Below, piece after piece: positions 3,641-25,878 of a stretch of 31,748 nucleotides of DNA (positions are counted from its first letter, which is position 1; each line of letters begins with the position of its first letter). The notes beneath the pieces are model-generated. The model made no database searches, was not told the DNA's origin, and saw only the letters and a list, made by a program, of their open reading frames with translations. This DNA comes from a virus: positions 6,050 to 37,797 of the IMG/VR virus record IMGVR_UViG_3300030419_003381; one strand, written 5' to 3'. The position numbers and the translations under genes are program-made.

Positions 3641-3815
3641 AATAGATAAATTGAAAAGTTGTAATAAGTGCAGAAAAGTTTGGCATAAAACCTATAGAAT
3701 AACCAGAACAGTTAATTATAATGGATACAGTTATTATAATGACTTTCCACATTATGGATTAGAAAAAGTGGATTGTCCAAAATGTAAGGAGATAAAAAAT
3801 GGCAGCAACGCTTGA
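3630..3815 (+). CDS. Zinc-ribbon microprotein (61 aa) upstream of the E2-like gene
   Basis: Two well separated Cys pairs, CNKC (residues 11-14) and CPKC (about 49-52), flank a tyrosine-rich beta-like segment, the pattern of a four-cysteine zinc ribbon. An AAAGGAA site precedes the ATG. The gene overlaps the previous frame by 11 nt and the E2-like gene by 17 nt, so it is translated with the conjugation genes. A zinc ribbon in this position could be a substrate-binding adaptor, but only its location supports that. Confidence 0.55.
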   Translation: MKTRIDKLKSCNKCRKVWHKTYRITRTVNYNGYSYYNDFPHYGLEKVDCPKCKEIKNGSNA

Positions 3816-5082: not shown

Positions 5083-5095
5083 TTAAGGAGATAAG

Positions 5096-6046
5096 ATGAA
5101 TCAAGACTTTTATATAAGTGAAAAAGACTGGAATAAAATCCAGAATTATGCTCAGGCAGCTTATAATAGTAGTAAATCTGAGATAGGCGGTATGTTAGTA
5201 GCTATTGAAGATAAAGATGGTGATTGGGAATTAAAGGATCCAGTCATACTTAAGCAAGAAATTAGCGGGAGTAATTGTGTATTAGATAAAGACGATCTAG
5301 CTTTATATTATACTAAAGTGGGAAGTAAACTCAAAAATAAAAACTTTCGCTTTGTATGGTGGCATAGTCATCACACAATGGATGCTTTCTGGTCAGGCAC
5401 AGACCTAACTGCTATTAAAGAATATTCTGATGGAGATTTTAGCTTTGCTTTAGTCGTAAATCTTAAAGAAGAATATAAACTTAGAGTTTCAATATGGAAA
5501 CCTTTTGAGGTACATGAAGATGTAGATCTAACTATCATGTCTAAAGAAAAGAAAGTACCTAAGAAGATAGAAGATGAAGTTGATGATAAATGTAGTGAAA
5601 TTTTTCATAATTATACTACATCTATATATAAAAATGGCAAATGGAGTAACGTTGACAAGGGAAAGTCGAATCAGATGACTCTAATGGATACCAAGGATAC
5701 CAAAGTTGGTGGTCTAAAGTTTAATCCTGAGTTATCTGGAGACACAGAAGATTATATTTATGCTTATGGTATGGTAGATGAGATGAATAAAAGATATTGT
5801 GATGGCAGATTGACATATGAAGGATGGATTCTGATGGCTAAAGATGTAAATAAGTTACTTAAAAGCACTTATGAAAGTCCTTATAGGGTAGAACTTGTAA
5901 CTGAGAGTGTACTTTCAGATCAAGTTATGTTATCAACACCGCATGAATATATAAACGTAGACCCAACCATAGATCCTCTTTTCGATGAGCACTATGAAGA
6001 TTGGCTAGATTATAAATCATGGAACGCATCATATGGAGTAAAATAA
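5096..6046 (+). CDS. JAB/JAMM-family metallopeptidase (deubiquitinase-like), 316 aa
   Basis: The first about 145 residues form a JAB/MPN domain with every metal-site residue present: Glu29 in SEIGGMLV, then H90-S-H92 followed by exactly seven residues, Ser100 and Asp103, the HxHx7SxxD signature of active zinc isopeptidases. Such enzymes cleave after the Gly-Gly of ubiquitin-like proteins, either maturing precursors or removing conjugates. The C-terminal about 170 residues (from about 150) are charged, partly helical and not recognised; they could bind partners. TAAGGAGAT precedes the ATG. Its stop overlaps the E1-like ATG (TAATG). The neighbouring genes and the TGGIK end of the 1820-2029 protein make precursor processing the likely job. 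Confidence 0.88.
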   Translation: MNQDFYISEKDWNKIQNYAQAAYNSSKSEIGGMLVAIEDKDGDWELKDPVILKQEISGSNCVLDKDDLALYYTKVGSKLKNKNFRFVWWHSHHTMDAFWSGTDLTAIKEYSDGDFSFALVVNLKEEYKLRVSIWKPFEVHEDVDLTIMSKEKKVPKKIEDEVDDKCSEIFHNYTTSIYKNGKWSNVDKGKSNQMTLMDTKDTKVGGLKFNPELSGDTEDYIYAYGMVDEMNKRYCDGRLTYEGWILMAKDVNKLLKSTYESPYRVELVTESVLSDQVMLSTPHEYINVDPTIDPLFDEHYEDWLDYKSWNASYGVK

Positions 6047-6705
6047 TGATAAATACAAGATCATCAGAGTTAGTAAATAACTTAGAAGACTTTACCTTTC
6101 ATATCTTGGGCTGTGGGGCTATTGGTAGTTCCGCAGCTCTTCAAATAGCAAGAATGGGTGCAACTCAATTTTGCTTATATGATATGGATAAAGTAGAAGA
6201 AGTAAATATAGGTGTATCACAATATACCTATGATGATATAGACAAACCTAAAGTAGAAGCATTATCAAATCATTTGAGAAAACTTGGAGTATTTAAAATT
6301 AATGAAGTTAATGGTAGATTTTCTCAGTTTAAACCTCAAGGTAAAAATGATATTGTTATATTAGGATTTGATTCAATGTCATCAAGATTAGAAGCAGTAG
6401 AGGCATTATTCAGCATCCCAGGAATAAAACCATTATATATAATTGATGGTAGAATGGGAGCTGAACATTATCAGCAATATGTATTTGATAATCCTACTGT
6501 ATCTAAATACAAGAAGACCTGGTATTCAGATGAGATTGGTAGCCCAGAGCCTTGCAATGCAAAAGCTACAAGCTATTGTTCTAATCTATCGGGTAGTATG
6601 ATAGCAAATACAGTAAGGAAATTAGTAACTGAACAACCTTTCAACAGGTCATTTTCATTTAACTTTCCTAATATGTTATTGGATAAGTCAGTTATGGTTT
6701 CGTAA
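6046..6705 (+). CDS. ThiF/E1-like adenylating enzyme (219 aa)
   Basis: A Rossmann-type ThiF/MoeB/E1 fold protein. From ATG 6046 the nucleotide loop GCGAIG is at residues 22-27, the strand-end acidic residues D46-x-D48 follow, then N54...Q59 and K69, and the strand GFDSMSSR has D109 and R114. Cys170 and Cys178 near the C-terminus are candidate transfer or structural cysteines. E1-like enzymes adenylate the C-terminal glycine of a ubiquitin-like protein. The Arg that often precedes Gln in N-x-x-RQ is Ser58 here. I prefer ATG 6046 to an upstream in-frame ATG at 6019, because 6046 has GGAG at 6035-6038 and overlaps the JAB stop. It is the last gene before the terminator at 6749. At 219 residues it is a minimal E1. 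Confidence 0.87.
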   Translation: MINTRSSELVNNLEDFTFHILGCGAIGSSAALQIARMGATQFCLYDMDKVEEVNIGVSQYTYDDIDKPKVEALSNHLRKLGVFKINEVNGRFSQFKPQGKNDIVILGFDSMSSRLEAVEALFSIPGIKPLYIIDGRMGAEHYQQYVFDNPTVSKYKKTWYSDEIGSPEPCNAKATSYCSNLSGSMIANTVRKLVTEQPFNRSFSFNFPNMLLDKSVMVS

Positions 6706-7905: not shown

Positions 7906-9690
7906 ATGATAAAAGAATTTGCATTTGGATTAGCACAAAGACATTATTTCCAAGATGCTGGAGATGTATGCAATTGGATGAATATAGATAAAGATACATT
8001 TATGTCCTTATATGATTTTGATGAAAATATTACAAATTACTTTAGTAAGAACAATACTTTATCAGGCTTTGATGGACTTGTATATATACCAGATGAATTT
8101 ATATTAGATGTAGATGGTATTGGAGAAAATGAATTAGAAGATGCCAGGCAAAAGGCATTAGGATTAAGCATCTTATTAGATGATTTACAAATACCATTTA
8201 GGTTATATTTTAGTGGCAATAAGGGGTTTCATTTTGGAATACCAGGAACAGCATTTAGATGGAAGCCAGATAAGAATTTACATTTAAATGTGAAAGATGC
8301 ATTAACTAATGCTGGTATATTTGATTATGCTGATCCGTCAGTGACTGATAAAATAAGGTTAATACGGGTCAATAATACGAAGAATTTAAAGGCTGGGCTT
8401 TGGAAATGTATTGTTCCTATGTCTATACTCCATTCAGAAAATATCAACGAGGATATAAAGAAAATAGCATATAAACCTGGAGATATTCCTGATTTTGAAC
8501 TTGAATGTGATCCAGTATTTGATGTACTAGAAAGGAATAAAGAAGATGAAGTTAAAACACCTGAGTTTATTAATCAGGGTAGGAATCCTGATCCAGTTAA
8601 TTATCCTTGTATATCTAGTATGCTTTGTAGTAATGCAAAGGGAGAGCGTCATGCTACTGCTTTACGTATTTCTGCTTGGTTTAGATGGTTATATCCTGAA
8701 TCAGTTGTTAATATCATTATGGAGCAATGGAGAGAACAAGTAGATGATCCTAAAAGTCCTTTTACAAAAAAGGAAATGGCAAGCATAATAAAGAGTTCAT
8801 ATGAATCTCATGGTGGACAAGGAAATAGATATGGATGTAGTGATATTATAATGGACAAACATTGCAGCCAAACTTGTAAACTATTTAAGTCAAAGAAAAG
8901 TCAATCTGTTATGGATGCACAAAGCATGGAAGAAAGTTTAATTAATTTCTTACGTAGTGATGTTAATCCTATAAACTTAGGAGATATATTCCCAGGTGAA
9001 GACTTTCCAATTTATCCAGGTGAAGTTGTTGTAATACAAGCTCCTCCTAAATCTATGAAGACTATGTTCTTGCAGAATGTAATGAATGGATTAAAGAGGC
9101 CGACTTACTTTATAGAAATGGAAATGTCACCTAGGCAGATATGGTCTAGATTTGTACAAATAGAAATGGGCTGGTCAGAAGAAGAGTTGAGATCACATTA
9201 TCAGCAAATGCAAAATGGTATGGATAAAAGATTTAAATGGTTGACAGTAGACTATTCATGCCCTTATGCTAATGAGTTAGAAAAGCGTATTGCTATGCTT
9301 CCAGTTAAACCAGAGATAGTTGTAGTTGATCATATGGGATTGTTTAAATCTAAACAAAGAGATCCTAATATGAAGACAGAAGAAGCATCTCAAGCTATGA
9401 TGGAATTAGCAGTAAGGCATAATATAATTGTATTCGCTGTAAGTGAAATAACTAAATCGGCATTCCATGAAGGTAATATGGACATTGCTTCAGCTAAAGG
9501 TTCATTTAGGACTGCATATAATACTAATAAATTGTTATCTGTTATACCTTCTAAAAGCATTACAACAGGTTTAATAGAGCAATTAAGAGTGAGATGTGAA
9601 GCTAATCGTGAACGTGAGCATTTAGATGTAAAGTTAACAGTTAATAATAGTAATATAAGAAAGGAAGTATATGAAAAAGCAGAAGTTTGA
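7906..9690 (+). CDS. Primase-helicase fusion (AEP-type primase plus DnaB/RecA-like ATPase)
   Basis: The N-terminal half resembles archaeo-eukaryotic (PrimPol-type) primases: FILDVDG with D68 and D70, SGNKGFHFGIPG (103-114, His109) and IRLIRVNNTKN (150-160, R151/R154). A middle part holds cysteines C235, C241, C311, C320 and C324, possibly a zinc or iron-sulphur site. The C-terminal half is a RecA-fold ATPase with a P-loop-position motif APPKSMKT (379-386), the Walker B strand IVVVDH (471-476) and a later SEITKSAFHEG region. Together they would prime and unwind phage DNA. The P-loop lacks both usual glycines, retaining only Lys-Thr. It follows the SSB-like gene, and the next gene overlaps its end by 20 nt. 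Confidence 0.8.
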   Translation: MIKEFAFGLAQRHYFQDAGDVCNWMNIDKDTFMSLYDFDENITNYFSKNNTLSGFDGLVYIPDEFILDVDGIGENELEDARQKALGLSILLDDLQIPFRLYFSGNKGFHFGIPGTAFRWKPDKNLHLNVKDALTNAGIFDYADPSVTDKIRLIRVNNTKNLKAGLWKCIVPMSILHSENINEDIKKIAYKPGDIPDFELECDPVFDVLERNKEDEVKTPEFINQGRNPDPVNYPCISSMLCSNAKGERHATALRISAWFRWLYPESVVNIIMEQWREQVDDPKSPFTKKEMASIIKSSYESHGGQGNRYGCSDIIMDKHCSQTCKLFKSKKSQSVMDAQSMEESLINFLRSDVNPINLGDIFPGEDFPIYPGEVVVIQAPPKSMKTMFLQNVMNGLKRPTYFIEMEMSPRQIWSRFVQIEMGWSEEELRSHYQQMQNGMDKRFKWLTVDYSCPYANELEKRIAMLPVKPEIVVVDHMGLFKSKQRDPNMKTEEASQAMMELAVRHNIIVFAVSEITKSAFHEGNMDIASAKGSFRTAYNTNKLLSVIPSKSITTGLIEQLRVRCEANREREHLDVKLTVNNSNIRKEVYEKAEV

Positions 9691-11411: not shown

Positions 11412-11441
11412 GATTATAGGGAGTTAATTCTCCCTATAGTC
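11412..11441. terminator. Bidirectional terminator at the convergence point
   Basis: GATTATAGGGAG (11412-11423) pairs with CTCCCTATAGTC (11430-11441) over 12 bp with one T-G wobble and a six-base loop TTAATT. It lies between the last + strand gene and the last - strand gene and includes the - strand stop codon. Neither side has a long T-run, so efficiency is uncertain, but position and symmetry fit a two-way terminator. Confidence 0.7.
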
Positions 11442-14325
11442 TAGTTAAAGCAGCTAAAGCAGCAGCCTTTACTCTCTTGTCTTTAGCAGAACTCTTACTA
11501 TCTATATCTACATTTGGAAGTATTGGAATCTGATTATAGGTTTTATCAGCAAGACCTTTCATTACACCTTTTCTCCAATTTTTCATCCACCTTGGTTGAA
11601 AGATACCAGATTCAACCCTTAAAGCTTTTTCCATTTGACCTTTCATAAGAGCTGGCATTGTATGCCATCCTGTTCTGGCTCCCTGTATGCTAAATATACG
11701 GGCAACATTATACCACCAATCAGGATCTGATGGGTCATAATTAAGGTTTCTATGCTCTTCATATTCTGGAGAACCAGAAGCTTGATCAAGGAAATCTAAC
11801 AATTCAGCAGCTGTTAATATATCGCTTATAAAAGGACCAAGATTACCTGTTATAGGATTTTTCCCATAATACGCAGCATATTTTTCCTTTTCATCATCTG
11901 AAAATATATAATTATAAAGCTTAGAAGCATCTTCAATAATTGGATTTTCTATAATTGATACTCCAGATCTTTGAGTTCCTTCTTCAGCCCTGTCTTCTTT
12001 AAAGGGACTACCAAAGGCACCAAATACTCCTCCTAAATCACTATTAAATGCTAATCCTGCTAAACCTGGAAGCAATGTGTAAATAGAGGCCATTCTAAAC
12101 ATCCTAGAAAAACTTTCACTAACTACCATTTCTCCAGTTATTGGATCTCTTTCCTTGAAATTAAAATCTTTAACATCTCTAGCAAAATCCTTAATAAGAT
12201 TATATTGCATATCGAAAAATGCAAACTTAAAATGTTGATACTGACCTATAACTTTACCACCTTTAGATCTAAGTATTTTAGCCTTTGCCCATGTATCATA
12301 ATCATAATGTAAAGTTCTAACCATATCATTAGCAGCATTGCCTGCATCGTTTTCAATCTTGTCATATATATCTTTTTTTGTTGCTTCTCTTCCAAGCTTT
12401 TTCCTTAAGTTGGCTGCATGATGATCATATCTACTTTGTTCTATCATAAAAGCATTTGCAAAAGCAATTTTAAAAGTATTTAACCTATTAGCATTTTCAG
12501 CCCATGCCATTGGTTTTGCTGCAAAATTAGTAAATTTTTCAGCAGTTAATGAAGCTCTCTTTAAAGTGGTTCCTTTTGTTTCAGGTATAATTTTACCTAC
12601 AGAGTTTAAGGTAAATCCTTCAGGAACATATAATATATCCATTGATCCACCTGTAGCAGCAGATGTCATTGTCCACCTGTCTCCCATCTTTAAACCAAAT
12701 CTTCTTAATTGCCTTTGAAGTAATGCTTTATTATCTCTAGCCTTTCCAGTTTCTTTACCGCTAGGATCATATTCTCTATTACTTCTTTCGTAAAACTCTT
12801 TAGATCTATTATAGCCTTTTCTTCCAAAGAAAACCCAATTATATAATCCTTGAGTCCTATTCTTTAATGCTCCTCTTACACTAAATCCTAACTTAGATAT
12901 ATACTCAAACCCATTTATAATCTGAACCATATGGTCCATGCTATCCATAGATCCTTTATGATGATTGATTGCAGAATCTCTAATCTCAGTAAGAATAGAT
13001 AGCATCTCACGAGAATAATCTCCAACATCCCCACCTTTCATATCAGCATTATTGCGAAGCTCTTTAAATAAGGTTTTAGTACCTTCACTAAATGCATATT
13101 GTATTCTTGCCCTTGAATTAAAGCTAGCTACATCATGAGCATATTTATTTAAATAATATATAGGATCAAGAGATGAATATAAATCTGTTTCAGGAGCTTT
13201 AAATTTTAATCTAGTTGTATTTAAATCACTTTCCATAAGGCGTTGAGCATCTCTATATAAAGCTTCAGCATTATCATACCTAAAATTAGTCTTATCTTTA
13301 TTTAATGCATACTCTGATATATTAGATACTATATCAGCTAATTCAATCACATAACTTGGAGAATATTTCTTGACACCTACCGCAAACTCTCCAGTCTCTT
13401 TATCAAATACTCTATAAGGCTCATTCTTTTTTGTCTCTGGATTAAAAACTTTCATTTCAAATCCATAGTTTTCACCAGTAGGAACAGCTAGCAATTTATC
13501 CTTGCTGGATTGCACTAATAAATGATCAATCTTTTCTTGTATTAAGTCAATAGATTTATTTAAATATCCAACATCCTCTAATGATGAAAGCTTAGATCTT
13601 ATAGCCATCTTTGCCATAGTAGCTCCATTTAATAGATTTTGCATAGAATTAGCACGCATTATATTCCATTCTCTCTGTATCATTCTTTCATTTTCATTCT
13701 TTGGTTGCTTTGAAAAATCTAGCAATCCTTGAAACCTACGCAATACTTGTCCCCCTACAGGAGTATTATTGTTATCTAAACTTCCAACTATTTTAAATAG
13801 CTGATTAATCATTGCTGTTTTTTGCTCTTGAGTTTTAGCCCCTATTAAATTTCTTTCTAGCTGTTGAAATTCTTTGAACTTTTTGCTATCCCAGTTTGCA
13901 TCTTTAATCATTCCGTATAATCCATCAATCATAAATTTAATATGTTGAGCACTTTCCTTTGTTTGTCTTTGATGGAATGATAGAGTCTCTGCTACATTAT
14001 TATAAAATTCTTCTCCTCCTTTTACATTTCTTACTAAAGCTTTTGGAAGCTTAAAGTATCGAGAGAATAAAGATTTACTTTGACCATAATTGTTTACAAA
14101 GTTCTTAACTTCTCTTTTGTATCTCTTTAATTCATATGGTTCTATCTTAATATTATCAAGATCAAATGGTTTGTTCTTGTTAGCTTTTCTCCAAAGCCAT
14201 TCTGCTGTTTCTGCTGTATTGTCTCCATTCTTAACTATCTTATAATTATTATCTAGTTCTCTACTTACTTTAAGAAACTCATCAAATCTTTTTCTTTGTA
14301 TGGGATCAGTTGTCAGACAATTCAT
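11434..14325 (-). CDS. Large internal virion/ejection protein (963 aa)
   Basis: I start at ATG 14325, where AGGAG sits 7 nt upstream and the ATG overlaps the previous stop (TAATG). The protein is largely helical and charged. A segment with WAENANRLNTFKIAF and, further on, A-NDMV-TLHYDY and GKVIGQYQHFKFAFFDMQ (about residues 630-740) resembles the C-terminal region of large polyvalent phage proteins (LPD38-like), though this is a by-eye resemblance. A hydrophobic glycine-rich stretch (SIYTLLPGLAGLAFNSDLGGVFGAF) could insert in membrane. It follows the 3005-residue gene and is probably co-injected with it. No enzymatic motif is seen. Confidence 0.6.
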   Translation of the reverse strand: MNCLTTDPIQRKRFDEFLKVSRELDNNYKIVKNGDNTAETAEWLWRKANKNKPFDLDNIKIEPYELKRYKREVKNFVNNYGQSKSLFSRYFKLPKALVRNVKGGEEFYNNVAETLSFHQRQTKESAQHIKFMIDGLYGMIKDANWDSKKFKEFQQLERNLIGAKTQEQKTAMINQLFKIVGSLDNNNTPVGGQVLRRFQGLLDFSKQPKNENERMIQREWNIMRANSMQNLLNGATMAKMAIRSKLSSLEDVGYLNKSIDLIQEKIDHLLVQSSKDKLLAVPTGENYGFEMKVFNPETKKNEPYRVFDKETGEFAVGVKKYSPSYVIELADIVSNISEYALNKDKTNFRYDNAEALYRDAQRLMESDLNTTRLKFKAPETDLYSSLDPIYYLNKYAHDVASFNSRARIQYAFSEGTKTLFKELRNNADMKGGDVGDYSREMLSILTEIRDSAINHHKGSMDSMDHMVQIINGFEYISKLGFSVRGALKNRTQGLYNWVFFGRKGYNRSKEFYERSNREYDPSGKETGKARDNKALLQRQLRRFGLKMGDRWTMTSAATGGSMDILYVPEGFTLNSVGKIIPETKGTTLKRASLTAEKFTNFAAKPMAWAENANRLNTFKIAFANAFMIEQSRYDHHAANLRKKLGREATKKDIYDKIENDAGNAANDMVRTLHYDYDTWAKAKILRSKGGKVIGQYQHFKFAFFDMQYNLIKDFARDVKDFNFKERDPITGEMVVSESFSRMFRMASIYTLLPGLAGLAFNSDLGGVFGAFGSPFKEDRAEEGTQRSGVSIIENPIIEDASKLYNYIFSDDEKEKYAAYYGKNPITGNLGPFISDILTAAELLDFLDQASGSPEYEEHRNLNYDPSDPDWWYNVARIFSIQGARTGWHTMPALMKGQMEKALRVESGIFQPRWMKNWRKGVMKGLADKTYNQIPILPNVDIDSKSSAKDKRVKAAALAALTRL

Positions 14326-17300
14326 TAACACTCTCCTAAGTATTTTTGCTTTAATTCAAACTCTGCATTGTTTTTGCCTTTACTTTGAAGTTGGAAATTA
14401 GTACCTTTTTCATATATTGATCTACTGTTAAAAAAATGTCCATCTGGATCTATATCTATTCTATCTACACCTTTCCAAGATTCATTCATAAACCTAATAA
14501 CTTCAGTAGGATTAGGAACTTCATTTAATTTATTCCCATATAGATTATATGTAGCTCTATATAGCTCTACAGGATCCATAAAATATGAACCGCTTAAATA
14601 AGACAGCATAACATTTTTAGCAGTATTATCTAAGTTAGGATCTAAAGCCCATTCAGGAAGAGTTTTAGGCTTAGGTAATATACCTCTGTCAGAAGGATCA
14701 CGCATAGCTCCTTGAAACTTAAATGCATCTCCTTTTAATGCAGGATTATATTCTAACATATATGCCTTCATGTGATTATCTACTATATCTTTATGTAGCC
14801 TGCCTGCAATATCTTTTCCTAAGTCTGAAGAATCATCTGTTTTTGCTCTATCTAAGAATGAAAAGACTAATCTTTCATTATATTTATTTTGATGAAAGCT
14901 AGGAACATATTGACTTCTACCCTCAAGTGCATTATATCCTACTATATCGTAGGTATTTTTTCTTACTTTTGGAGCTAGCAAATTGTACAATAATTGTTTA
15001 GTCATAACTTCAGATCTACCATACATTGATAGCCCTTGAATATCTTTGATAGCATCTGAAAGGACTCTTAGATGAGCCTCTGTAACCACCCCAAACTTAT
15101 TAAATGATGTTGCTCCATCTTGGGTTAATAGTTTTGAAGCTTTATTTAAATCTTTTTTATACTTTTTTACTATACTATTAACTTGCATTAACTCAATATC
15201 GGTTACTATCTGTCTTGCAAAAGCTCTACTCATTGCTCTTCTTTGAGCTGAAACATTTCCATTTTCTATTCTTACTTTTGCATAGTTCTGAGCTAATATT
15301 TCTCCCTTTCTATAAGTAATTAATTGACCTGGTTTATATTCTTTGATAGGGAAAACATCATAGCCAGTAGCACTCTTGTCATTCTTGTTTCTTATGAATT
15401 TTAAAACAGGATAATTTCTTCTTGTACTACCTGCCTTATCTTTAACTTCAAATTTATTTTCACTATAAGTAGCATTAAGATTAAACTCCGAGACTAATTG
15501 CTTCCTATTATCTCTCATATTCTTTAAGGTTTCAAATTTATCTTTATTTATAGAGCCACCTCTTCTACCATGCATTCTTAAATTATCTAATACATTCTCA
15601 ATTTGCTCTACTTCCCATGCTACATACTCCATTTCAGCCCATTTATCCCGATCTTTAATAGTCTTCTTTACATATGAACTAAACCGATCATTTGATACAG
15701 GAGTACTTGAGGCCATCATACTTGCCAAATCACTTCCAGATGGTATACCTCTTTTGAAATTTTGTCTTAAGCTATTTTCTATAGCTATCAAACCTTTTAT
15801 TAATGGATGACTTGATTGGCCTAAGGAAGCACCACCAATGTCCTTACTTCCACCTAATCTCTGATCCCCTAAAAACCTTAATATATCATTAGATAAAACT
15901 TTAAGCTCATTACTGTCTCCTAAGTTAAAAGAACCGTCTTTGCCCTTATAATGATTATGACCAGCTAAGCTTATTTTTCTTTTTGCTGATTGAAAAGCAT
16001 TATTAACTTCCCAAAGACTCATCTTCCTTCTGCTTCCGTCAGACATATATTCTGTCATATTAGCAATATTAAATATCTCAGCAATAGGCAGCATTATTTC
16101 CCTAACCATTTTCGAATGAAGCTTTCTGAAGTCTTTATTTGTGACATCTACAGCCTGAACTACTTGTCCAAGATCACCTGCACCCATTTTTGTCTGATAT
16201 ATTTCAAACATGCCTTCTATTTTTTCGTAAAGCATATTTTCTATTTGCTTAGGATCTATCTTTGATGGATTTTTATATATATCTATAGTCTCTTTAATTA
16301 AAGACTTAGTATTTTGTATAGCATCAACAAACTGGGCTCCACCTTTAAACTTAACAGTATATGTTGATCTTCTACCTTCATGTTCAAATAATTCCATTCC
16401 AGAATTTTTATGATAATAGTCTGGCCTTAATCCAGGAAGCAATTCATTTTCTTTATTTTTTACTGCTGCAAGTTGATACAGAAACGATGAAACAGAATGT
16501 GACCTTACTAATGCTGGTCTCTTTGCAGCTAACTCCATCATGTCAAGTCTATATTGTTCTACATCTACACCAGATATAGTATCCATTCCTTCTAGCACTT
16601 TAAAGAATACATCTTTAGCAGGATCTTGATAGCCAGAGAAATTATAAATCTCTTTAATAACCTTTCCAGGCAATGCAAAAAAGCTAGAAGATTTATCTAA
16701 ATCAAAATCTGCATCCTGAGTATCAATGACATCTAAATAATTCATCTCTGATACAGGGCCTTTTTTATGATTTAATAATTTTTCTACTTTAGTAATAACC
16801 CTATCATTAGCCCCAACCATTGGAGTTCTAAGGTCAACCTTAGCTAAATGTATATTCTTATATGAGTTTCCACCGGCAATAGTCTTTGCCATTGAGAATG
16901 CAGTATTATTAGTAGTTCTAAAGTCTAGATTAGGATCTATTGATTCTCCTCTTCTTCCATCAAGATACATTACAAAATCACCGATAGTATGAACATCTCC
17001 AGACTGTAATGCCCTATCAACTATTTCTTTATAATCTTTCGATATATCACTTTCTAACTGCTTTAGAAGCTTACTATCGGCAGCCTTTCTCTTTTTTGCA
17101 GTTATATCTCTTTGAATCCCAAATCTAATGTCATCTAACCCAGGCCCCATTAATTGTCCATCAAAAGTATATACTAAGTCAACTCCTTCTTTAATGCCCA
17201 TAGGAGCGAACTCTTTATACTTAGCTGCTAAAGATTTATCAACATTAAATATTAAGCTTATACCTTCATTATTACCTTTGAACAGCCCAGATATAGGCTT

Positions 17301-20300
17301 ATTCCAAGAATAATATGACATTCCACTTCCCCCAAAAGATGTTTGAGTCCCACCTTCTCTTATCCCTATCGAAAGTCCATCTCCAGCTGTCATTGCTTCA
17401 TAAGCTCCATTTTTCATTTGGCTAGAAGTAAAGTTTCTTCTTCCTAGATATTCAGATACAACCATCTTTTCAATTTGAGGAGCCATATATTCAAAGGAAG
17501 GAATACCTCCTGATTGTATAATCCCTTCAATACCCATTACTTGCATTAAATTATCTCCATGCTCATAATTGATACCTTTTAAATGCTCAACTATTTTCCT
17601 GCTAGCAAATGGGCTTTCACTTAACTGAGCATGCCTTTCAAGTACATCTCTAACTGAGTTTTGAGAACCTGTAATTGAATTTATAGCGTCTGTAGCATCT
17701 TTTGTAAAAAAGTTTGTAAAAGCACTTGACATCGTAGCATCATGCTCTCCGCTTATTGACTTTATAAATATAGCTTCTCTAGGCAGTTCATATATATGGT
17801 CAGATGTGATATTGTTCTTAATCAAATCTCCAAGATGCTCTTTCCAACCTACCCTTAAATCATTACTTGATATTTCTGGCAGATTAAATATTTTAGCTTG
17901 ATATTCAGCATCTGCACTAGACTTAACTGCATTCTTCTTTACAGCACTCTTGAATGTAATTGAGTCAAACATATAATTCCCATCTGAATCTTTCATCATA
18001 GAGTCAATAACTGGATCATATTTATATGCAGTCTTTCCTACATATACAGTAGCACTACCATCAGAAATATTTATTCGAGAATCAAGCTCAATAGGCTTTA
18101 CAACGACATTAAATCCTGTAATTTTTCCATCCTCATCGCGAGTAAACCAATCAGACCTTGCTCCCTTTTGCATTAATATTGAAGTCATTTCAGGCAATGA
18201 TAAGTATTTCTCACCATTAACAATAGATGCATTAATATTTTCGTAAACTTCCATTTGAGCCTCAGCTTCATTTCTGGCTTCAGCTTCAGACATTCCTCTT
18301 TCTTTGATGTATTTTTGAGTTAAGTCTTTCATTCCTCTAACTTGAGTATTAAAAAATGATTCTGCTGCTTTTTTCTCTTGAGGAGTTCCACCTTCATCTC
18401 TTATAGTTAATGTTCTTTGAGGTTTTATAGATCCATCTGGATTAAATGTATGCTTTAAAAATGTATCATAACCATCTCTAAGTATATGATCTTGAGGTAG
18501 CATTCTATCTAAATAAATTTTAGCAAAGTCAGCAGTAGTCTTATCTAATGCCATTCCTGTTCTTGGACTATCTAACTTTAGATATTTCATAAGCTTTCTT
18601 ACATCTGCAATATCATTATTTTTATTAACTACATTAGATAAATCATCATGAAAGCTCCCTAGCATTCTAGTCATTAATAATATATGTTCTGCATTATCTC
18701 CAGTAGTTTTTATCTTTGCATTTCCGTTTTTATCTATTTCTGCTCCTAATTGCCTTCTCAAGTAATCCTCTGCTTTAGCTTTATCACCAACAGCAATTTC
18801 AAATTTCCTTCTATTTTCAGAGGTAGGAGAAGACCAGGATTGAATAACTTTATCAAATGCATTTTGATGTAAGAAAACCATTGTCTTTTCATCTAGCGTT
18901 ATGGCTCTTGTTTGGGCTGTACCTTTTCTGCCATCACCAAAACCAAATGTTCCTAACTGCTCAAGTATAGCTTTATCTCCAGTTGATAATATATCTCTAG
19001 GATTAATATTAGCTCCAACACCAGACTCTACTATACTATTAAGCTCTCTCATAACATCAGGGGTTAATCTAGTTCTAATAGTTCTTTCATTGGCCCATCT
19101 ATTCCCAGCTAATAATAATTGACCAGATTGCAATCCAAGCATTTGTTCCAACTTCACAATGCCTGTATTCCAAGTGGATATATTTGCATGAGATAATTCT
19201 AATACTCCATTGTTAAACACTGCCATAGGAAATTTAGTATTAGCTAAACCCGATTGCATTATGAACATAGTATCCATAACAAAATCTTGATACATTTGCT
19301 CTGAAGTAGACTTCCCTTTTTCATTTGGTGGTAACAATTCCCATTTAGCTTCAATAGAAGCTTTTTGAGATTCAACAACAGGCTTAATGAATATATCTAT
19401 ATAATTTTCATGTGTCATACCTAACATCTTTTGTAATTGATCAAACCCTGATATAGGATCTCCAGATATAGATGCATCATCTACAAGCTTTATGATTCTT
19501 TCTTGCTCTTTTGTTAGTTTTTCTAAGCCTCTAATAAGCTCAATAGGATTCTTTTTAAATTGCTCAACCTTAGTCATATCATTATTAAACCATCTAGCAG
19601 CATATTGAGAGTCTGATATAGATGTATTACCAGCATGAATCTTTCCACTTCTATCTGTCATTCTTAAGTTATCAATAATAGATTCAGTATAACTGTTAAT
19701 ATCCTGTATCTCATCAAAGTTTAATTTTTGTTCTTGTATCTTTCGCTGCTCTACTATAAAATCTCTAAGCGTATTTGTATAATCTCTTAATGCATCTGGT
19801 ACATTAGAATCTGTTTGCATTTTCTGATTCAAATCACTAAGCTTATGCATTCTATCATATACAGACCTGAATCCTATAATATTATCTTGACTTTGATAAA
19901 TAGATAATAACTCAAGTAAATTATTATTCTCTAAAGATAGATCGGAAATTCTAGAACTCAACTCCTTATTTATAGTTCCGTCTGACTCTACTAATTTTTG
20001 GCTTTCTGTAATCACATCTTTAATAGTTTTATTTAAGCCTGAAGTAACATACATTAAAGATTCTAAATCAAGAGCAGATACTCTGTCTGCATTGACAATC
20101 ATCTCTTGCATAAACTGTTTAATCTCTTGCGGAGAATGATATTCTAAATTAATATTATCTCTATTAAATCTAATAAGAGATACATCAGTAAGATTTCTTT
20201 TTAATGGATTTTCTACTATTTGCTTATAGTCTCTTATAAGCTTTCTTGTTTGCTCTGTGATTGCATTTTTTTCTGGACCTCCAGTATTTTCATACTGCAA

Positions 20301-23300
20301 TAATAAGGTCTCTATCTTGTCTGCCTCAACGATATGCAGCACATTTCCTTTTCTATAAGCAAAAGGATTATTAGCATTAAGTGCTGTAACTAAAGCTCTT
20401 CTTAGTCCTGTGCCTAGATTAGGATTTCCAGTTAATTTTGATGTTATTTGTTGCTCAGTATATCTCATAAAGGAAGATAAAACTTCTTGATTGTTTAGTA
20501 GAGTTTCACCTGAATATGATCCTAATTCTTTTACAATATTCTGCTCAACTTTTTCAAACTGTGCTTTTGTAATCTCTCTTATGCCAGTTCCAATATCTGG
20601 AGATAGCATGCCTTTTAATAAATTTAAATTTTCTAACGCTTGCATATTCTCTTTTGAGACGTTAACTAAATCTTGAGCTGTAAACTCTAAACGCTCGTTG
20701 CCTGAATATATATCACCAATTATTTCATTGTACCTGTCTATATTCCCTTCAGATTTTGTAAATATTTCATATGCTTTTCTATTTCTTTCATGAAGTTCCC
20801 ATGTGTGCATAGCATGCCAAACTGGCTTTGATGCCATTATATTAGGATCAGGGAATCCAGATTCAGGAGAACTGTAATGAGGTACAATTTCTCTCCAATT
20901 TAAACCATCTTCACTAAGTGTAAGTTGATGCATCTTTTCTGCATTTGTTTTATATAAGGCATTAAATCTTGATAATTGATCTTCTGTAGGCAATGCCCCT
21001 CTCCAGAGTTGTCCACCTTTATCAGAATTTATAGATACAAATCCAGATCTTTGTGCTTCTATAATAGCATTGTGTAATGCTGAGGCTGAATCTACATATA
21101 TATTTTTAGTTTGTCCTGTTTCATCTACTCTATAATGATTACTTTTAATACTCTCTAAAAGATCAACAGCAGTCTTATGTATTTGAGGCTTACCCATTGG
21201 GTCAAGATCAATCCTTATACCTAATGATTCAAAGGAATCTATTATATACGATATCTCATTATTTCTAATTGATTCGGACATTGCTCCAACAGCATTCTGT
21301 CTTTTCTCTTTTAATACAGTTTCAACAGTAGTTGGGTCTAAGATCCTCCCATCTACTCTTATAGAATTTAATTCTTGTATATATCTGTCTGTTTCTTCTG
21401 CTGTCATAGGACGAGTTTTTTTATATCCAGCTCCTATTTCTCCAGAGTCTTGTAATTTACTTGCAACAAAAAATTGATCTTTAAAAGACTTTAATTCTGC
21501 CTGTAATTCTGATTTCCTAGAAGTATTTTTTTCAGCTGCTATTTGAGCAGTTAGATCAGCAATCTTTTTATGAGCATGAACTTGCCATATTTGAACTGCA
21601 CCAGTCTTATCAGCATTTAATGTAGTTATTATTTCATCTGCATCTGCAAGATTTTCTCTAACTTTATCATGTATTTTTTTCAGCTCAGGAGAATTTTCAT
21701 CAACAGCCTTACTTACTTTCCCTATTGCCTTCTCATTATCTGCAACCCTTGCCATTCCAGCAATTTTATCTAATACTTCAGGTTTATATCCTAATATATC
21801 CATAGTTTTAACCCATGAATTAATTTCTCCGCCTGTACCATCTACTCCTGTTTTTTCAAAGAATCTAGGCATTTTAGGTCTACCCTCAAATGTTTTGCCT
21901 CTCTTCATATAGATCATTCCTATATAATGATCTGCTAATAACTTATCATAAGGATAATCTTCTGTCCCTATAATATCTCTTGATTCATAATACATGGTCC
22001 CATTCATAAGGAGAGATCCAATAGAAGCTCTCCAAAAGGACTCTGCTCCATCTCTTCCTATTTCACTTGCTAGGTTTGCGATCAATCCCTTGTTTAACTT
22101 TCCTTGAGCATCTCTATGTGGAAATACTTCTTTCTTAACCTGTCTAAATGCTTGCCTTAATATATCTACCTGCTCAGGCTTTAACTTGCCGTCAAGTAAT
22201 GATGTAGAAAATCCTTTAACATTACTCAACCAAGATACTGGTTTACCAGCACCACCCCACATCGTCTTTAAAGATAACTGCAATTGTCCTGGGGTCATTC
22301 TTTCTACGTTTCTAAATCTATTTCTAAAGCCTCTTCCTATATGCCCTATATCAGCCATCATTCCACTTTTCCCGAACTGTACTGCCTTACCGCCAGGAAT
22401 GTATCGTGTAGGGGCTAATACGGAGCCTAAAGCAGCCCCATGTAAAGCTCTTGCATACCAAGGTTTAAATAATCCAGGGGCATCTGATTCTTCTAGTTCA
22501 TAAATATTAGCAGCTATTTCACCAGCTTCACCCACCAAAGTATCAAAGGTTCCAAGTAATACTGCTTCATATGCTGAATCTCCAACTATTTGAGATATTC
22601 TGGGACCTACACCCGCTGCACGTAAAGATGTGGATATAGAGTTTCCAAATGTTTTAGTTAAGCTTTCTCCAGCTTCGCCTAATGCCATTTTAGTTAATGC
22701 TGTTAATTGCTGCGGATTGATATTTGGAATATTCTCAACCAAAGTTTCTGTCATTATTTTGCTTGCCTGAGCTTCTATCCTAGGGTTTGCAAGAGGATTA
22801 GTTTTTAATGCTCTTCTTGTAAAGTATGACCATGGTTTAACGCCATTTAATTCTGCATCTAACCCTTCTTTTATAGCCTTTCTGCCTGTCTTTATAATAT
22901 CCTCACCAAGCTCTTCACCTATTTCTTGGCCACCTTTTTCAAATATTTCTTTAGCTACTTTTTTACCAGCAGGTTTAACTCCTGCATTGGCCAATTTAGA
23001 TATTGCTCCTAATCCTTTTCCTATTGTACCTATACCACTTATAATACCTGCACCTGTACCTAAAGCATATCCAACTTTACCAGCTAAAGATTCATCCTTC
23101 CATTCATCTGAACCAAAGCTTCTAGATAATTCTCCCTTAGATGCTATATCAGCTACCGTTGGAAGAACAAGCGACTCCCCAAAACCCCATGCAAAGTTTC
23201 CAAGAAGATCTCCTACTGGAGTATCAACAAAGCCCCTGTCCTCACCAAGGGCTTCTTCTTGTCTTTGAGCTTCTTCTTGCTGAAGTCTCTCTAGCTCTCT

Positions 23301-23342
23301 TTTGCGTTGCTCTAAAGCTAATCGCTCTTCGCGTGTCATCAT
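14325..23342 (-). CDS. Giant virion protein with RNA-polymerase-like DFDLD motif (3005 aa)
   Basis: A 9-kb gene with no internal stops. The N-terminus has a charged coiled coil, then a glycine-zipper segment (GYALGTGAGIISGIGTIGKG, from about residue 91) like phage ejection proteins. Near residue 2172 an R-T-P motif is followed, about 40 residues later, by DADFDLDK (D2212-F-D-L-D2216) and a Pro at 2225. Multisubunit RNA polymerases have R-Q-P, then NADFDGD-x6-P, in the catalytic double-psi barrel, and the crAss-like phage virion RNA polymerase has DFDID. Much of the rest is long helices and unrecognised. AAGGA precedes the ATG. Flanking genes look like other ejection proteins. The likely role is an injected virion RNA polymerase; the alternative is a giant cargo protein with a fortuitous acidic motif. 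Confidence 0.6.
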   Translation of the reverse strand: MMTREERLALEQRKRELERLQQEEAQRQEEALGEDRGFVDTPVGDLLGNFAWGFGESLVLPTVADIASKGELSRSFGSDEWKDESLAGKVGYALGTGAGIISGIGTIGKGLGAISKLANAGVKPAGKKVAKEIFEKGGQEIGEELGEDIIKTGRKAIKEGLDAELNGVKPWSYFTRRALKTNPLANPRIEAQASKIMTETLVENIPNINPQQLTALTKMALGEAGESLTKTFGNSISTSLRAAGVGPRISQIVGDSAYEAVLLGTFDTLVGEAGEIAANIYELEESDAPGLFKPWYARALHGAALGSVLAPTRYIPGGKAVQFGKSGMMADIGHIGRGFRNRFRNVERMTPGQLQLSLKTMWGGAGKPVSWLSNVKGFSTSLLDGKLKPEQVDILRQAFRQVKKEVFPHRDAQGKLNKGLIANLASEIGRDGAESFWRASIGSLLMNGTMYYESRDIIGTEDYPYDKLLADHYIGMIYMKRGKTFEGRPKMPRFFEKTGVDGTGGEINSWVKTMDILGYKPEVLDKIAGMARVADNEKAIGKVSKAVDENSPELKKIHDKVRENLADADEIITTLNADKTGAVQIWQVHAHKKIADLTAQIAAEKNTSRKSELQAELKSFKDQFFVASKLQDSGEIGAGYKKTRPMTAEETDRYIQELNSIRVDGRILDPTTVETVLKEKRQNAVGAMSESIRNNEISYIIDSFESLGIRIDLDPMGKPQIHKTAVDLLESIKSNHYRVDETGQTKNIYVDSASALHNAIIEAQRSGFVSINSDKGGQLWRGALPTEDQLSRFNALYKTNAEKMHQLTLSEDGLNWREIVPHYSSPESGFPDPNIMASKPVWHAMHTWELHERNRKAYEIFTKSEGNIDRYNEIIGDIYSGNERLEFTAQDLVNVSKENMQALENLNLLKGMLSPDIGTGIREITKAQFEKVEQNIVKELGSYSGETLLNNQEVLSSFMRYTEQQITSKLTGNPNLGTGLRRALVTALNANNPFAYRKGNVLHIVEADKIETLLLQYENTGGPEKNAITEQTRKLIRDYKQIVENPLKRNLTDVSLIRFNRDNINLEYHSPQEIKQFMQEMIVNADRVSALDLESLMYVTSGLNKTIKDVITESQKLVESDGTINKELSSRISDLSLENNNLLELLSIYQSQDNIIGFRSVYDRMHKLSDLNQKMQTDSNVPDALRDYTNTLRDFIVEQRKIQEQKLNFDEIQDINSYTESIIDNLRMTDRSGKIHAGNTSISDSQYAARWFNNDMTKVEQFKKNPIELIRGLEKLTKEQERIIKLVDDASISGDPISGFDQLQKMLGMTHENYIDIFIKPVVESQKASIEAKWELLPPNEKGKSTSEQMYQDFVMDTMFIMQSGLANTKFPMAVFNNGVLELSHANISTWNTGIVKLEQMLGLQSGQLLLAGNRWANERTIRTRLTPDVMRELNSIVESGVGANINPRDILSTGDKAILEQLGTFGFGDGRKGTAQTRAITLDEKTMVFLHQNAFDKVIQSWSSPTSENRRKFEIAVGDKAKAEDYLRRQLGAEIDKNGNAKIKTTGDNAEHILLMTRMLGSFHDDLSNVVNKNNDIADVRKLMKYLKLDSPRTGMALDKTTADFAKIYLDRMLPQDHILRDGYDTFLKHTFNPDGSIKPQRTLTIRDEGGTPQEKKAAESFFNTQVRGMKDLTQKYIKERGMSEAEARNEAEAQMEVYENINASIVNGEKYLSLPEMTSILMQKGARSDWFTRDEDGKITGFNVVVKPIELDSRINISDGSATVYVGKTAYKYDPVIDSMMKDSDGNYMFDSITFKSAVKKNAVKSSADAEYQAKIFNLPEISSNDLRVGWKEHLGDLIKNNITSDHIYELPREAIFIKSISGEHDATMSSAFTNFFTKDATDAINSITGSQNSVRDVLERHAQLSESPFASRKIVEHLKGINYEHGDNLMQVMGIEGIIQSGGIPSFEYMAPQIEKMVVSEYLGRRNFTSSQMKNGAYEAMTAGDGLSIGIREGGTQTSFGGSGMSYYSWNKPISGLFKGNNEGISLIFNVDKSLAAKYKEFAPMGIKEGVDLVYTFDGQLMGPGLDDIRFGIQRDITAKKRKAADSKLLKQLESDISKDYKEIVDRALQSGDVHTIGDFVMYLDGRRGESIDPNLDFRTTNNTAFSMAKTIAGGNSYKNIHLAKVDLRTPMVGANDRVITKVEKLLNHKKGPVSEMNYLDVIDTQDADFDLDKSSSFFALPGKVIKEIYNFSGYQDPAKDVFFKVLEGMDTISGVDVEQYRLDMMELAAKRPALVRSHSVSSFLYQLAAVKNKENELLPGLRPDYYHKNSGMELFEHEGRRSTYTVKFKGGAQFVDAIQNTKSLIKETIDIYKNPSKIDPKQIENMLYEKIEGMFEIYQTKMGAGDLGQVVQAVDVTNKDFRKLHSKMVREIMLPIAEIFNIANMTEYMSDGSRRKMSLWEVNNAFQSAKRKISLAGHNHYKGKDGSFNLGDSNELKVLSNDILRFLGDQRLGGSKDIGGASLGQSSHPLIKGLIAIENSLRQNFKRGIPSGSDLASMMASSTPVSNDRFSSYVKKTIKDRDKWAEMEYVAWEVEQIENVLDNLRMHGRRGGSINKDKFETLKNMRDNRKQLVSEFNLNATYSENKFEVKDKAGSTRRNYPVLKFIRNKNDKSATGYDVFPIKEYKPGQLITYRKGEILAQNYAKVRIENGNVSAQRRAMSRAFARQIVTDIELMQVNSIVKKYKKDLNKASKLLTQDGATSFNKFGVVTEAHLRVLSDAIKDIQGLSMYGRSEVMTKQLLYNLLAPKVRKNTYDIVGYNALEGRSQYVPSFHQNKYNERLVFSFLDRAKTDDSSDLGKDIAGRLHKDIVDNHMKAYMLEYNPALKGDAFKFQGAMRDPSDRGILPKPKTLPEWALDPNLDNTAKNVMLSYLSGSYFMDPVELYRATYNLYGNKLNEVPNPTEVIRFMNESWKGVDRIDIDPDGHFFNSRSIYEKGTNFQLQSKGKNNAEFELKQKYLGEC

Positions 23343-23379: not shown

Positions 23380-25878
23380 CTAATTTGGAAACAATTCATT
23401 GAATTGTGCTATAAGATCTGGATTAGAAAGAGCTTTTAATTTTCTTCTTTCAGGATCATTATCTGCCCAGTAATTCTTTGACCTTAATTGGTTTAATTTT
23501 AATTGTTTTACTAGTGCTGCCCATCCATCTTCTTCTGTTTCAAAAATAGCAAAACCATTCTCATCTGCTCCTATTGCATTTGCTTGTCCTGCAAATTTTA
23601 AATTGCCAGGATTATTATTTCTTTGGCTAGGATTTAAAGGAGAATTTCCTTGAGATAAATTCTGTTCCTCAGTGTTATAATATCCTTCAGCTTGAGCTAC
23701 TGCCTCAGCCAATTCTTGAGTATTTATCTTAAATAAAGGTGTATCTCTAGACACTCCTAGTTGAGCTTCTAAATTTGAAATATGTTCAACACTATTGTCT
23801 GCATAACTCCTAGAAAAATCTCCTAATGTTTTATTCATTTTTTCTCTTAGCACAATTTCTGCATTCAATTTTGAAAGTGAATCTGTTCCCATAAATCTAC
23901 TAACTCCCGATGAAATCATATCAAGAAGATCTCCACCTTCATCTGTAAATCCTAATTCTCCTAATTGATTTTCAAAACCTTCAATCCCTTCTGTCATCTC
24001 AAAAGATTGGTCCTGAAAGCTTTTAAATAATTCTACGCCTCCATCAGCCATTTCATAAGGAAATCCAGAAATTAATGGATCTTTATTCTTAATAGCCATT
24101 CTAGACCTAAAATCACTTTCATATTCTGCCATATATGCTTTTGAACCCATACTTTGCATTCTTGTGAGCTCAGTTTGTAATGAGTCTTTTTGCTCTCTTA
24201 TATCTTCAGCTTGCAATAATAAATCTTGCCATTCTCGATACTGTTTTGGAGCGGTAAGCTCCATATATTCAGCTTCAGTATTTATATTCTCTATGCTATC
24301 TGTTACATCAGTATCTAAAAATGCAGTAGTGTCAATATCATTAAGATTGATTATATTCTCGAAAAGGTTAGCAGTACTACCATCTCTTCTAAAAAGTCCT
24401 ACATTTGGATCTGGCTCACCTGTCATCTCGTCTAATATAGCTTGAACTTCAGGAGAAAATTCTTGAGGCGTTCCAACAGGATCATAAGATGGAAAACCAA
24501 AATCATCATCAAATGGATCAAGTGGATTAACATTTAAATCCTCAGGAGTTCCTTCCTGTATTTCAGATTGTTCTGCATTCGGGTCCATACCTAAAGCAGC
24601 TATCTTCCTTGCTGTCACATTATAAGTAGTATTTGTATGCTTTAATAAACCTATAGTTTCTTCCCAGTCTTCTTGTCTAATTCCAGTTAGTTGCTCTAGT
24701 CCTTTCCAATTTACATTAGCTTCGGGATCACTTAAGTACTCATCCCAAAGAAAAATTAAGTTTTTAATGTAAGGTATAGATGTAGTATCCCCTTGACCTT
24801 TTCCATATCCTAAGGTTCCACTATCTATATTGTCTTTAAATGATTCTCCAATATTAACTACATCATCAAATAATCGTTTCTCTATAAGATATAATTCTGG
24901 GTTATCATTTTCGAGCTTAAGTAATCTTTCTTTTTCAGCCTCATAAGAACCTGTTTTTCCAGTAAGTACATTACCTAAATTGTATCTTGCTCTTTCTACT
25001 TCTTGTTCAGCTTGATCTGATGCCTCTTTTAATTCCTTATTGTCTGGGTCTTTCAAGTAAGCTCCATATTGAGCTGCAAAGTTATTTTCTAGAAGCCCAA
25101 AGTCTGATAAAAAGTTTGCTGGAAGATTTATATCTATCAATAGCCCTGCATTTTGATTTGTCTCTCGAAGGTCCTCCATTAATAATTCTCTATTTATGCC
25201 AGCTTGATCTGCACGTGCTCTAATTAACTCATTTTTACTTACAATTAAATTCTTATTTAGTTCTGCGCTTTGTCTTTGTGCCTCTAGCCTATTAAGGCCT
25301 TGCTCTAAAAATATTTTCTCTTGCGCTCCTTCAATGAATGGCTGTAAGCTTTCATCAAACTGACTGTATTGGTCTCCGTAGGTTTCCTTGAATGCTTCTA
25401 AACTAATATCTTGCGGGTCTATAATATCAACATCACCATACAAAGATGGATCAACTCCCATACCTTTTTGCCATGCTTGCATTTGTGCTATTGGACCCAT
25501 TAAGAGAGTATTTATTTGCCTTGACTCTTCCTTTAATCTAGATTCATTTTCCTTCATTGAATTAATTTTGTTGACTAAACCCTCAAGGGAAGGTTGAAAA
25601 CTAGTAGTAGTATATTCTTCAAACCCTTGAGTTTTAGCTTCGTCTGGAAGATTATATCTTTTGCCAGAAGCTTTTTCAAGAGCATCTTTCTTTGTCTTAA
25701 CATCGCTCTCTAGCGTTGCTATGTTATTGCTTAAATTCTGTATTTCTAAATTTATTAAAGCTCTTTCGCTAGCAAGAACATTAGCTCGCTCAGTTGCAAA
25801 AGCTGCTGAACGATTTCTTTCAATAGACTGAGATAATTCTGCTAATCTTTGTTGAACTATACTTTCTCTTCTAGCCAC
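23380..25878 (-). CDS. Virion protein with C-terminal peptidoglycan-hydrolase-like domain (832 aa)
   Basis: Starts at GTG 25878, with GGAG six bases upstream. Residues 1-130 are coiled coil (ALINLEIQNLSNNIATLESD), followed by long helical and acidic regions. The last about 85 residues begin SQRNNNPGNLKFAGQ (from 751) and continue ENGFAIFETEEDGWAAL, matching the NNPGN...GFA-F----G--A pattern of small phage lytic domains such as those annotated with PRD1 P5/lysozyme-like proteins. It would cut cell-wall peptidoglycan during DNA entry. It lies directly upstream of the 3005-residue gene, similar to the order of ejection-protein genes in podoviruses. The catalytic residue cannot be assigned with certainty. 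Confidence 0.7.
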   Translation of the reverse strand: MARRESIVQQRLAELSQSIERNRSAAFATERANVLASERALINLEIQNLSNNIATLESDVKTKKDALEKASGKRYNLPDEAKTQGFEEYTTTSFQPSLEGLVNKINSMKENESRLKEESRQINTLLMGPIAQMQAWQKGMGVDPSLYGDVDIIDPQDISLEAFKETYGDQYSQFDESLQPFIEGAQEKIFLEQGLNRLEAQRQSAELNKNLIVSKNELIRARADQAGINRELLMEDLRETNQNAGLLIDINLPANFLSDFGLLENNFAAQYGAYLKDPDNKELKEASDQAEQEVERARYNLGNVLTGKTGSYEAEKERLLKLENDNPELYLIEKRLFDDVVNIGESFKDNIDSGTLGYGKGQGDTTSIPYIKNLIFLWDEYLSDPEANVNWKGLEQLTGIRQEDWEETIGLLKHTNTTYNVTARKIAALGMDPNAEQSEIQEGTPEDLNVNPLDPFDDDFGFPSYDPVGTPQEFSPEVQAILDEMTGEPDPNVGLFRRDGSTANLFENIINLNDIDTTAFLDTDVTDSIENINTEAEYMELTAPKQYREWQDLLLQAEDIREQKDSLQTELTRMQSMGSKAYMAEYESDFRSRMAIKNKDPLISGFPYEMADGGVELFKSFQDQSFEMTEGIEGFENQLGELGFTDEGGDLLDMISSGVSRFMGTDSLSKLNAEIVLREKMNKTLGDFSRSYADNSVEHISNLEAQLGVSRDTPLFKINTQELAEAVAQAEGYYNTEEQNLSQGNSPLNPSQRNNNPGNLKFAGQANAIGADENGFAIFETEEDGWAALVKQLKLNQLRSKNYWADNDPERRKLKALSNPDLIAQFNELFPN

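Follow-up and report, generated by a model that had tools for sequence, protein, structure and literature searches.

Is a protein of 3,005 amino acids, encoded among the late genes of an uncultured phage, an RNA polymerase that enters the host cell together with the DNA? Precedents for such enzymes exist. The virion RNA polymerase of the podophage N4 is a giant injected enzyme of about 3,500 amino acids, and its fold is T7-like. Its domain context has been described (PMC5512222). Virion polymerases of the two-barrel type occur in crAss-like phages (PMC7886860) and in phage P23-45, where two-barrel enzymes outside the virion are present as well (PMC10770324).

The stretch of DNA analysed here (the window; 31,748 nucleotides) corresponds to positions 6050-37797 of a 52,804-base viral record (G000:C1). 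Working from the letters alone, the sequence-only reading had picked out a virion protein with an RNA polymerase active-site signature and suggested that it is injected. The open reading frame is present, running from 23342 to 14325 on the minus strand from an ATG start, and R2172-T-P2174, A2211 with the following D2212-F-D-L-D2216, and P2225 all occupy the positions given for them. The features discussed below are collected in Table 1.

Table 1. Position and basis of assignment of features in and around the giant gene (window coordinates).
Feature	Position	Strand	Basis
Giant protein with long N-terminal extension; predicted two-barrel RNA polymerase in a single chain	14325..23342	-	ORF, homologues, predicted fold
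N-terminal glycine-zipper hydrophobic segment, residues 86-117	22992..23087	-	Hydrophobicity; recurs in homologues
Predicted beta-subunit-like barrel (DPBB-B) and preceding segment, about residues 1700-1875	17718..18245	-	Model strands; gp66 DPBB-B profile match
K1749 of invariant K-P, candidate catalytic lysine of DPBB-B	18096..18098	-	Conservation
K1770 of invariant G-K-T, second candidate lysine of DPBB-B	18033..18035	-	Conservation
Predicted beta-prime-like barrel (DPBB-A), residues 1974-2225	16668..17423	-	Model strands; gp66 DPBB-A profile match
R2172-T-P2174 (R-Q-P in most homologues)	16821..16829	-	R and P 33/33, Q 24/33
D2212-F-D-L-D2216, predicted metal-binding triad	16695..16709	-	Sequence and alignment conservation
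Candidate bridge helix: extended helix spanning residues 2261-2298 and containing conserved R2275	16449..16562	-	Model; R 31/33
832-aa virion/ejection-type protein, upstream of giant gene	23380..25878	-	Residues about 678-800 resemble virion lysin/transglycosylase profiles
965-aa protein, immediately downstream, overlaps giant gene	11434..14331	-	No known family; candidate polymerase partner or ejection protein

Homologues and recruitment

The family search assigned no Pfam family to the giant protein, PHROG matches were sub-threshold only, the PDB holds no related sequence, and no known polymerase was found by plain sequence search. Among 50,697 phage records the protein has no relative, and no homologue from a cultured phage was found. 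Locus searches seeded with the protein (P0001) or with its motif region were unsuccessful because the family is too divergent; a degenerate DNA pattern for DADFDxDK succeeded and yielded 45 loci in IMG/VR. About 40 of these are clear homologues, up to 3,133 aa long, and in the complete ones the motif lies at about residue 2150-2330. Matches in L012, L022, L030, L040 and L048 fall in unrelated ORFs and were set aside as chance.

The homologues split into two subfamilies. Subfamily A, which includes the window protein, has the signature LRTP...GPVSEMN..DV[IL]..QDADFDLDKS, and subfamily B has RQPRNMxGDxVISK...GN[VI]SxMN..DAIxPQDADFDxDKS. Cellular large subunits carry LNRQPSLH...NADFDGD, which we take the R-Q-P and the spacing of subfamily B to recall.

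Active-site residues and their conservation

Among 33 aligned sequences, 33/33 keep R2172, P2174, D2212, D2214, D2216 and K2217, and 28/33 keep P2225; Q stands between R and P of R-x-P in 24/33. G2195, N2201 and D2204 are likewise invariant. At the K1749 site both the lysine and the adjoining proline are found in 28/28 of the rows having a residue there, and K1770 is found in 30/30. Both lysines, invariant in the family and retained in distant members as well (profile-profile alignments), may be catalytic. A further conserved position is the final residue, C3005 (window 14328-14330), with Cys aligned in 26/27 homologues.

Most of the 33 alignment rows were recruited by a pattern requiring D-A-D-F-D-x-D-K and were therefore not taken as proof of triad conservation; two independent recruitments were used for this purpose, by an upstream motif and by the portal protein. 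The first pattern, G-K-T-A-[FY]-K, lies about 440 residues upstream of the active site and retrieved 24 loci. DxDxD is kept in 16/16 of the homologues obtained in this way that reach the active site; 14 of them were already in the first set, and the 2 new ones read DADNDFDK. The portal led to at least 140 related contigs. It is shared at 49-68% identity by 10/10 polymerase-bearing records tested, and the polymerase profile matches 7/16 portal-recruited records directly, several of them weakly. Six large or full-size records with a weak profile match or none have a protein of 2,000-3,000 residues at the corresponding place, and the homologous site in these giant proteins reads DYDVD (two cases), DFDVD (two cases), DYDGD and DNDGD. 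Profile-profile comparison confirms homology in three pairs (P 7e-19, 6.6e-10 and 7e-12), with the triad and the K-P and G-K-T/K-G sites lining up in the alignment portions listed for these pairs. A seventh portal-recruited case, the split ORF of G012, carries GDYDID, as read from the sequence outside the alignment. The expectation of the sequence-only reading that the acidic triad is conserved in homologues is thus borne out in the independently recruited members that reach the site.

Two portal-recruited genomes have the giant protein split into ORFs of about 1,000-2,000 codons (L164/L165 in G012, L170/L172 in G017). The splits are either real or assembly errors; the piece bearing DxDxD is still present.

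Giant ejected proteins evolve fast, and two portal-recruited members (G011 and G017) lack the R of R-x-P. Both facts would suit an ejection protein that has kept a polymerase-like fold and lost catalysis. A dead site would drift, however, whereas every member reaching the site retains the whole acidic triad, in contexts as varied as DFDLD, DNDFD, DYDVD, DYDGD, DNDGD and DFDVD, and K1749 and K1770 are kept as well. Loss of catalysis is accordingly considered very improbable, and an active polymerase remains the preferred reading.

Predicted fold and relation to known polymerases

Residues 1640-2540 were modelled with AlphaFold2 using 31 homologues (pLDDT 78.1, pTM 0.81). The predicted layout, which draws on fold matches and profiles, comprises two barrels, putatively double-psi, in one chain: a beta-like barrel (about residues 1700-1875) is followed by a beta-prime-like barrel (about 1974-2225) that would contain R-x-P and DFDLD. 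The elements of the latter in the model are strands 1974-1986, 2161-2171, 2181-2189 and 2197-2200, helix 2202-2209 and strand 2217-2221. Around the motif they run strand, R-T-P, strand, strand, helix, DADFDLD, strand, and beta-prime has the same arrangement. The long helix that comes after DPBB-A in the model is a candidate for the bridge helix.

A fold search of the PDB with this model returned gp66 of the Cellulophaga phage phi14:2 (Crassvirales; 6vr4) with E 2.7e-5 and probability 1.00, and QDE-1 (7y7p) with E 2.2e-3 and probability 0.95. These are the only clear matches, all others having E 0.3 or worse. A barrel around residue 2212, on which the earlier interpretation depended, is predicted by a confident model whose best matches in the whole PDB are gp66 and QDE-1. 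Over the whole alignment with 6vr4 the TM-scores reach only 0.27/0.13 and do not confirm how the domains are arranged. In a viral structure library the strongest matches are A0A516-series entries (E down to 3.9e-23) together with crAss-like giant proteins, for example cr118_1 (E 6.5e-9). A second model, of the distant subfamily B homologue L039 (pLDDT 82.6), has no PDB match below E 0.001; its top 11 PDB matches are all two-barrel polymerases, namely Pol I, II and IV, the ASFV polymerase and, as third match, maize RDR2. This result is supportive, not conclusive.

Homology to gp66 is also found at the level of profiles. The reference was an alignment of the gp66 family with eight members, drawn from Crassvirales and from phages related to them. 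Since whole-length profile alignment was weak (P 0.002-0.02) and partly mis-registered, sub-profiles of the individual barrels were compared together with controls. Barrel B, taken as residues about 1700-1873, matches the DPBB-B region of gp66 with P=0.0008 (cross-control P=0.16), and barrel A matches DPBB-A with P=0.0007 (swapped control P=0.9).

The window protein and gp66 are both single-chain giant proteins with an R-x-P ... DFD[IL]DK motif. In both phages the gene is found at the late operon's end, behind those for portal, capsid and tail, and the operon includes a metallophosphoesterase (phrog_221). The two proteins differ in length (3005 versus 2180 aa) and in the context of the motif (DADFDLD versus GSDFDID), and are about 10% identical. 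The phages themselves differ too, at about 53 kb for the window phage and 100 kb for phi14:2. QDE-1 and the other eukaryotic RNA-interference RNA polymerases (7y7p, 7w82) have the same single-chain two-barrel layout, but are not virion-associated and have no plain sequence similarity that could be detected. The gp96 protein of P23-45 is likewise a giant virion protein that contains a two-barrel polymerase (PMC10770324); this polymerase differs in being N-terminal in a siphovirus tape-measure fusion, in reading DFDGD and in being clampless, and it is not among the structural matches listed for the window model. With the N4 enzyme the window protein would share the role of giant injected polymerase of a podophage, but not the fold: Pfam, PDB sequence and fold searches gave no Pfam RNA_pol match and no match to N4 RNAP or a T7-like structure.

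The motif by itself is not decisive, because the profile built from the family also matches the unrelated Wza chain in the PDB, which contains DVIKQQDADFDLDK (DADFDLDK). On its own the motif is not beyond chance; judged from the alignments, it is conservation that lifts it above chance. The occurrence in Wza, together with the failure of plain sequence searches to find a polymerase, could be taken to mean that a structural virion protein without kinship to polymerases has gained an acidic loop by chance or convergence. This explanation deserves hardly any credence, as the fold search of the PDB already contradicts it and the controlled barrel-specific profiles, R-Q-P at the right spacing and the lysines of the partner barrel all agree with that search in favour of a polymerase.

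Genomic context and affiliation of the phage

The late genes lie on the minus strand. Terminase is followed by portal, scaffold-like, capsid and adaptor-like proteins and the metallophosphoesterase, then by proteins of 1,533, 568, 219, 392, 319 and 832 aa, the polymerase and the 965-aa protein. This order parallels that in phi14:2 (portal to gp71, gp70, gp69, gp68, gp67, gp66), where the annotation of gp66 to gp71 rests on mass spectrometry of virions. The ejection-type neighbours that had been proposed are partly corroborated: the 832-aa protein fits PHROG virion-lysin profiles (phrog_2276, E 6e-9; phrog_873, E 2e-8) with a lysin-like region near its C-terminus, and its tblastn matches are annotated as tail injection transglycosylase or tail lysozyme, whereas the match of the 219-aa protein to T7 gp14 is not significant (E 0.083). 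The 965-aa protein has no Pfam family and no significant PHROG match; ORFs of 981-999 codons follow the giant gene in L008, L023 and L042.

The glycine zipper at the N-terminus of the giant protein, another element of the sequence-only reading, is also real. Its sequence, LAGKVGYALGTGAGIISGIGTIGKGLG (residues 86-112), ranks among the most hydrophobic stretches of the protein, and the feature is seen again at about residues 75-130 of homologues.

The phage lies outside Crassvirales, differing from that group in the families of its portal, capsid and terminase. The terminase is phrog_38, the portal PF16510/phrog_156 and the capsid SU10-type (PF17236, E 1e-21; phrog_1328); the capsid (PF23898/phrog_11589), portal (phrog_6547) and terminase (phrog_6681) families of Crassvirales were not found in the window phage. 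For all three proteins phi14:2 served as the control, and its capsid is assigned to PF23898 and phrog_11589. The difference from gut crAss-like phages that had been noted thus extends to all three proteins. No relative of the portal was found in host genomes.

Outside the late operon, three adjacent plus-strand genes (window 3799-6705) encode a 427-aa protein, a protein of the Prok-JAB type (PF14464, E 5e-4) and one resembling ThiF/E1 (PF00899, E 3e-16), which on domain content would form a phage-borne ubiquitin-like conjugation or deconjugation cassette. Another plus-strand gene (7906-9690) joins a primase region to a DnaB-like helicase in one protein.

A two-barrel RNA polymerase need not be injected; it could be made late, as a non-virion late-gene polymerase or a maker of replication primers. 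An unusual role in replication is conceivable, as a search of the record for a family-A DNA polymerase found none, and the pair of virion and non-virion enzymes in P23-45 offers a precedent. Against this, the gene belongs to the virion/ejection portion of the late operon, the protein has an N-terminal glycine zipper and a very long N-terminal extension of the kind usual in giant ejected proteins, and the order of genes resembles that in phi14:2, whose gp66 is a virion protein. A late, non-injected enzyme is therefore regarded as unlikely, and injection is the reading followed below.

Divergence of the polymerase and of the portal

The gene for the giant polymerase-like protein persists throughout a lineage of phages that share the portal at 49-68% identity. 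While the portals stay in this range, identity to the core of the window protein drops from about 49% to 18% among homologues. Subfamilies A and B are about 21% identical, with portals about 60% identical; in L025/G005, for example, the polymerase is about 21-22% identical and the portal 61%. This contrast suggests either fast evolution of the polymerase or its exchange between related phages. The polymerase of crAss-like phages has been stated to evolve very fast (PMC7886860). On balance, we lean slightly towards the view that a large uncultured podophage-like lineage outside Crassvirales (at least 140 portal-sharing contigs) uses an injected two-barrel polymerase as a core gene, which diversifies far faster than the capsid genes or is exchanged independently of them.

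Proposed mode of action

Taken together, the giant protein is probably a two-barrel DNA-dependent RNA polymerase of the gp66/QDE-1 branch, most likely packaged, injected and employed in transcribing early genes. The finding of the sequence-only reading is sound, and its interpretation is largely supported. We infer RNA synthesis and early-gene transcription by the giant protein; its presence in the particle and its injection are suggested by gene position, the glycine zipper and the likeness to gp66. By analogy, the enzyme would work like the virion polymerase of crAss-like phages, in a phage outside Crassvirales.

In the proposed mechanism, the giant protein would be assembled inside the particle together with the ejection proteins and would travel with the DNA through the envelope into the cell, where the glycine-zipper N-terminus and the lysin-bearing neighbour may help it across. 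The polymerase module would refold, or stay active, after entry and transcribe the plus-strand early genes (HNH, the E1/JAB cassette, ERF and the primase-helicase), before or without the action of host RNA polymerase. A search for a promoter motif shared among the early genes gave nothing convincing, the repeats being mainly ribosome-binding sites.

Biological significance

Two-barrel polymerases form a link between transcription in cells, RNA interference and a small number of phage groups. A two-barrel virion polymerase is in itself already known; its occurrence in this uncultured non-Crassvirales lineage is new as far as found, no description of the lineage's polymerase having been met in the literature, although the survey of viral two-barrel polymerases in PMC10770324 may list it among its 23 families. 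An enzyme of this type in a phage of roughly 53 kb that has an SU10-type capsid and a P22-type portal extends the range over which virion-carried polymerases are known. The system is compact and has many natural variants, and the around 40 diverse homologues offer material for structural studies of a highly divergent family of enzymes. The independence of small phages from the host at the start of transcription becomes testable. If the enzyme is active on entry, small tailed phages that are not crAss-like could begin reading their own genes as soon as they enter the cell. If the proposal is true, virion two-barrel polymerases would be a recurrent solution of small phages and not a speciality of the crAss-like ones.
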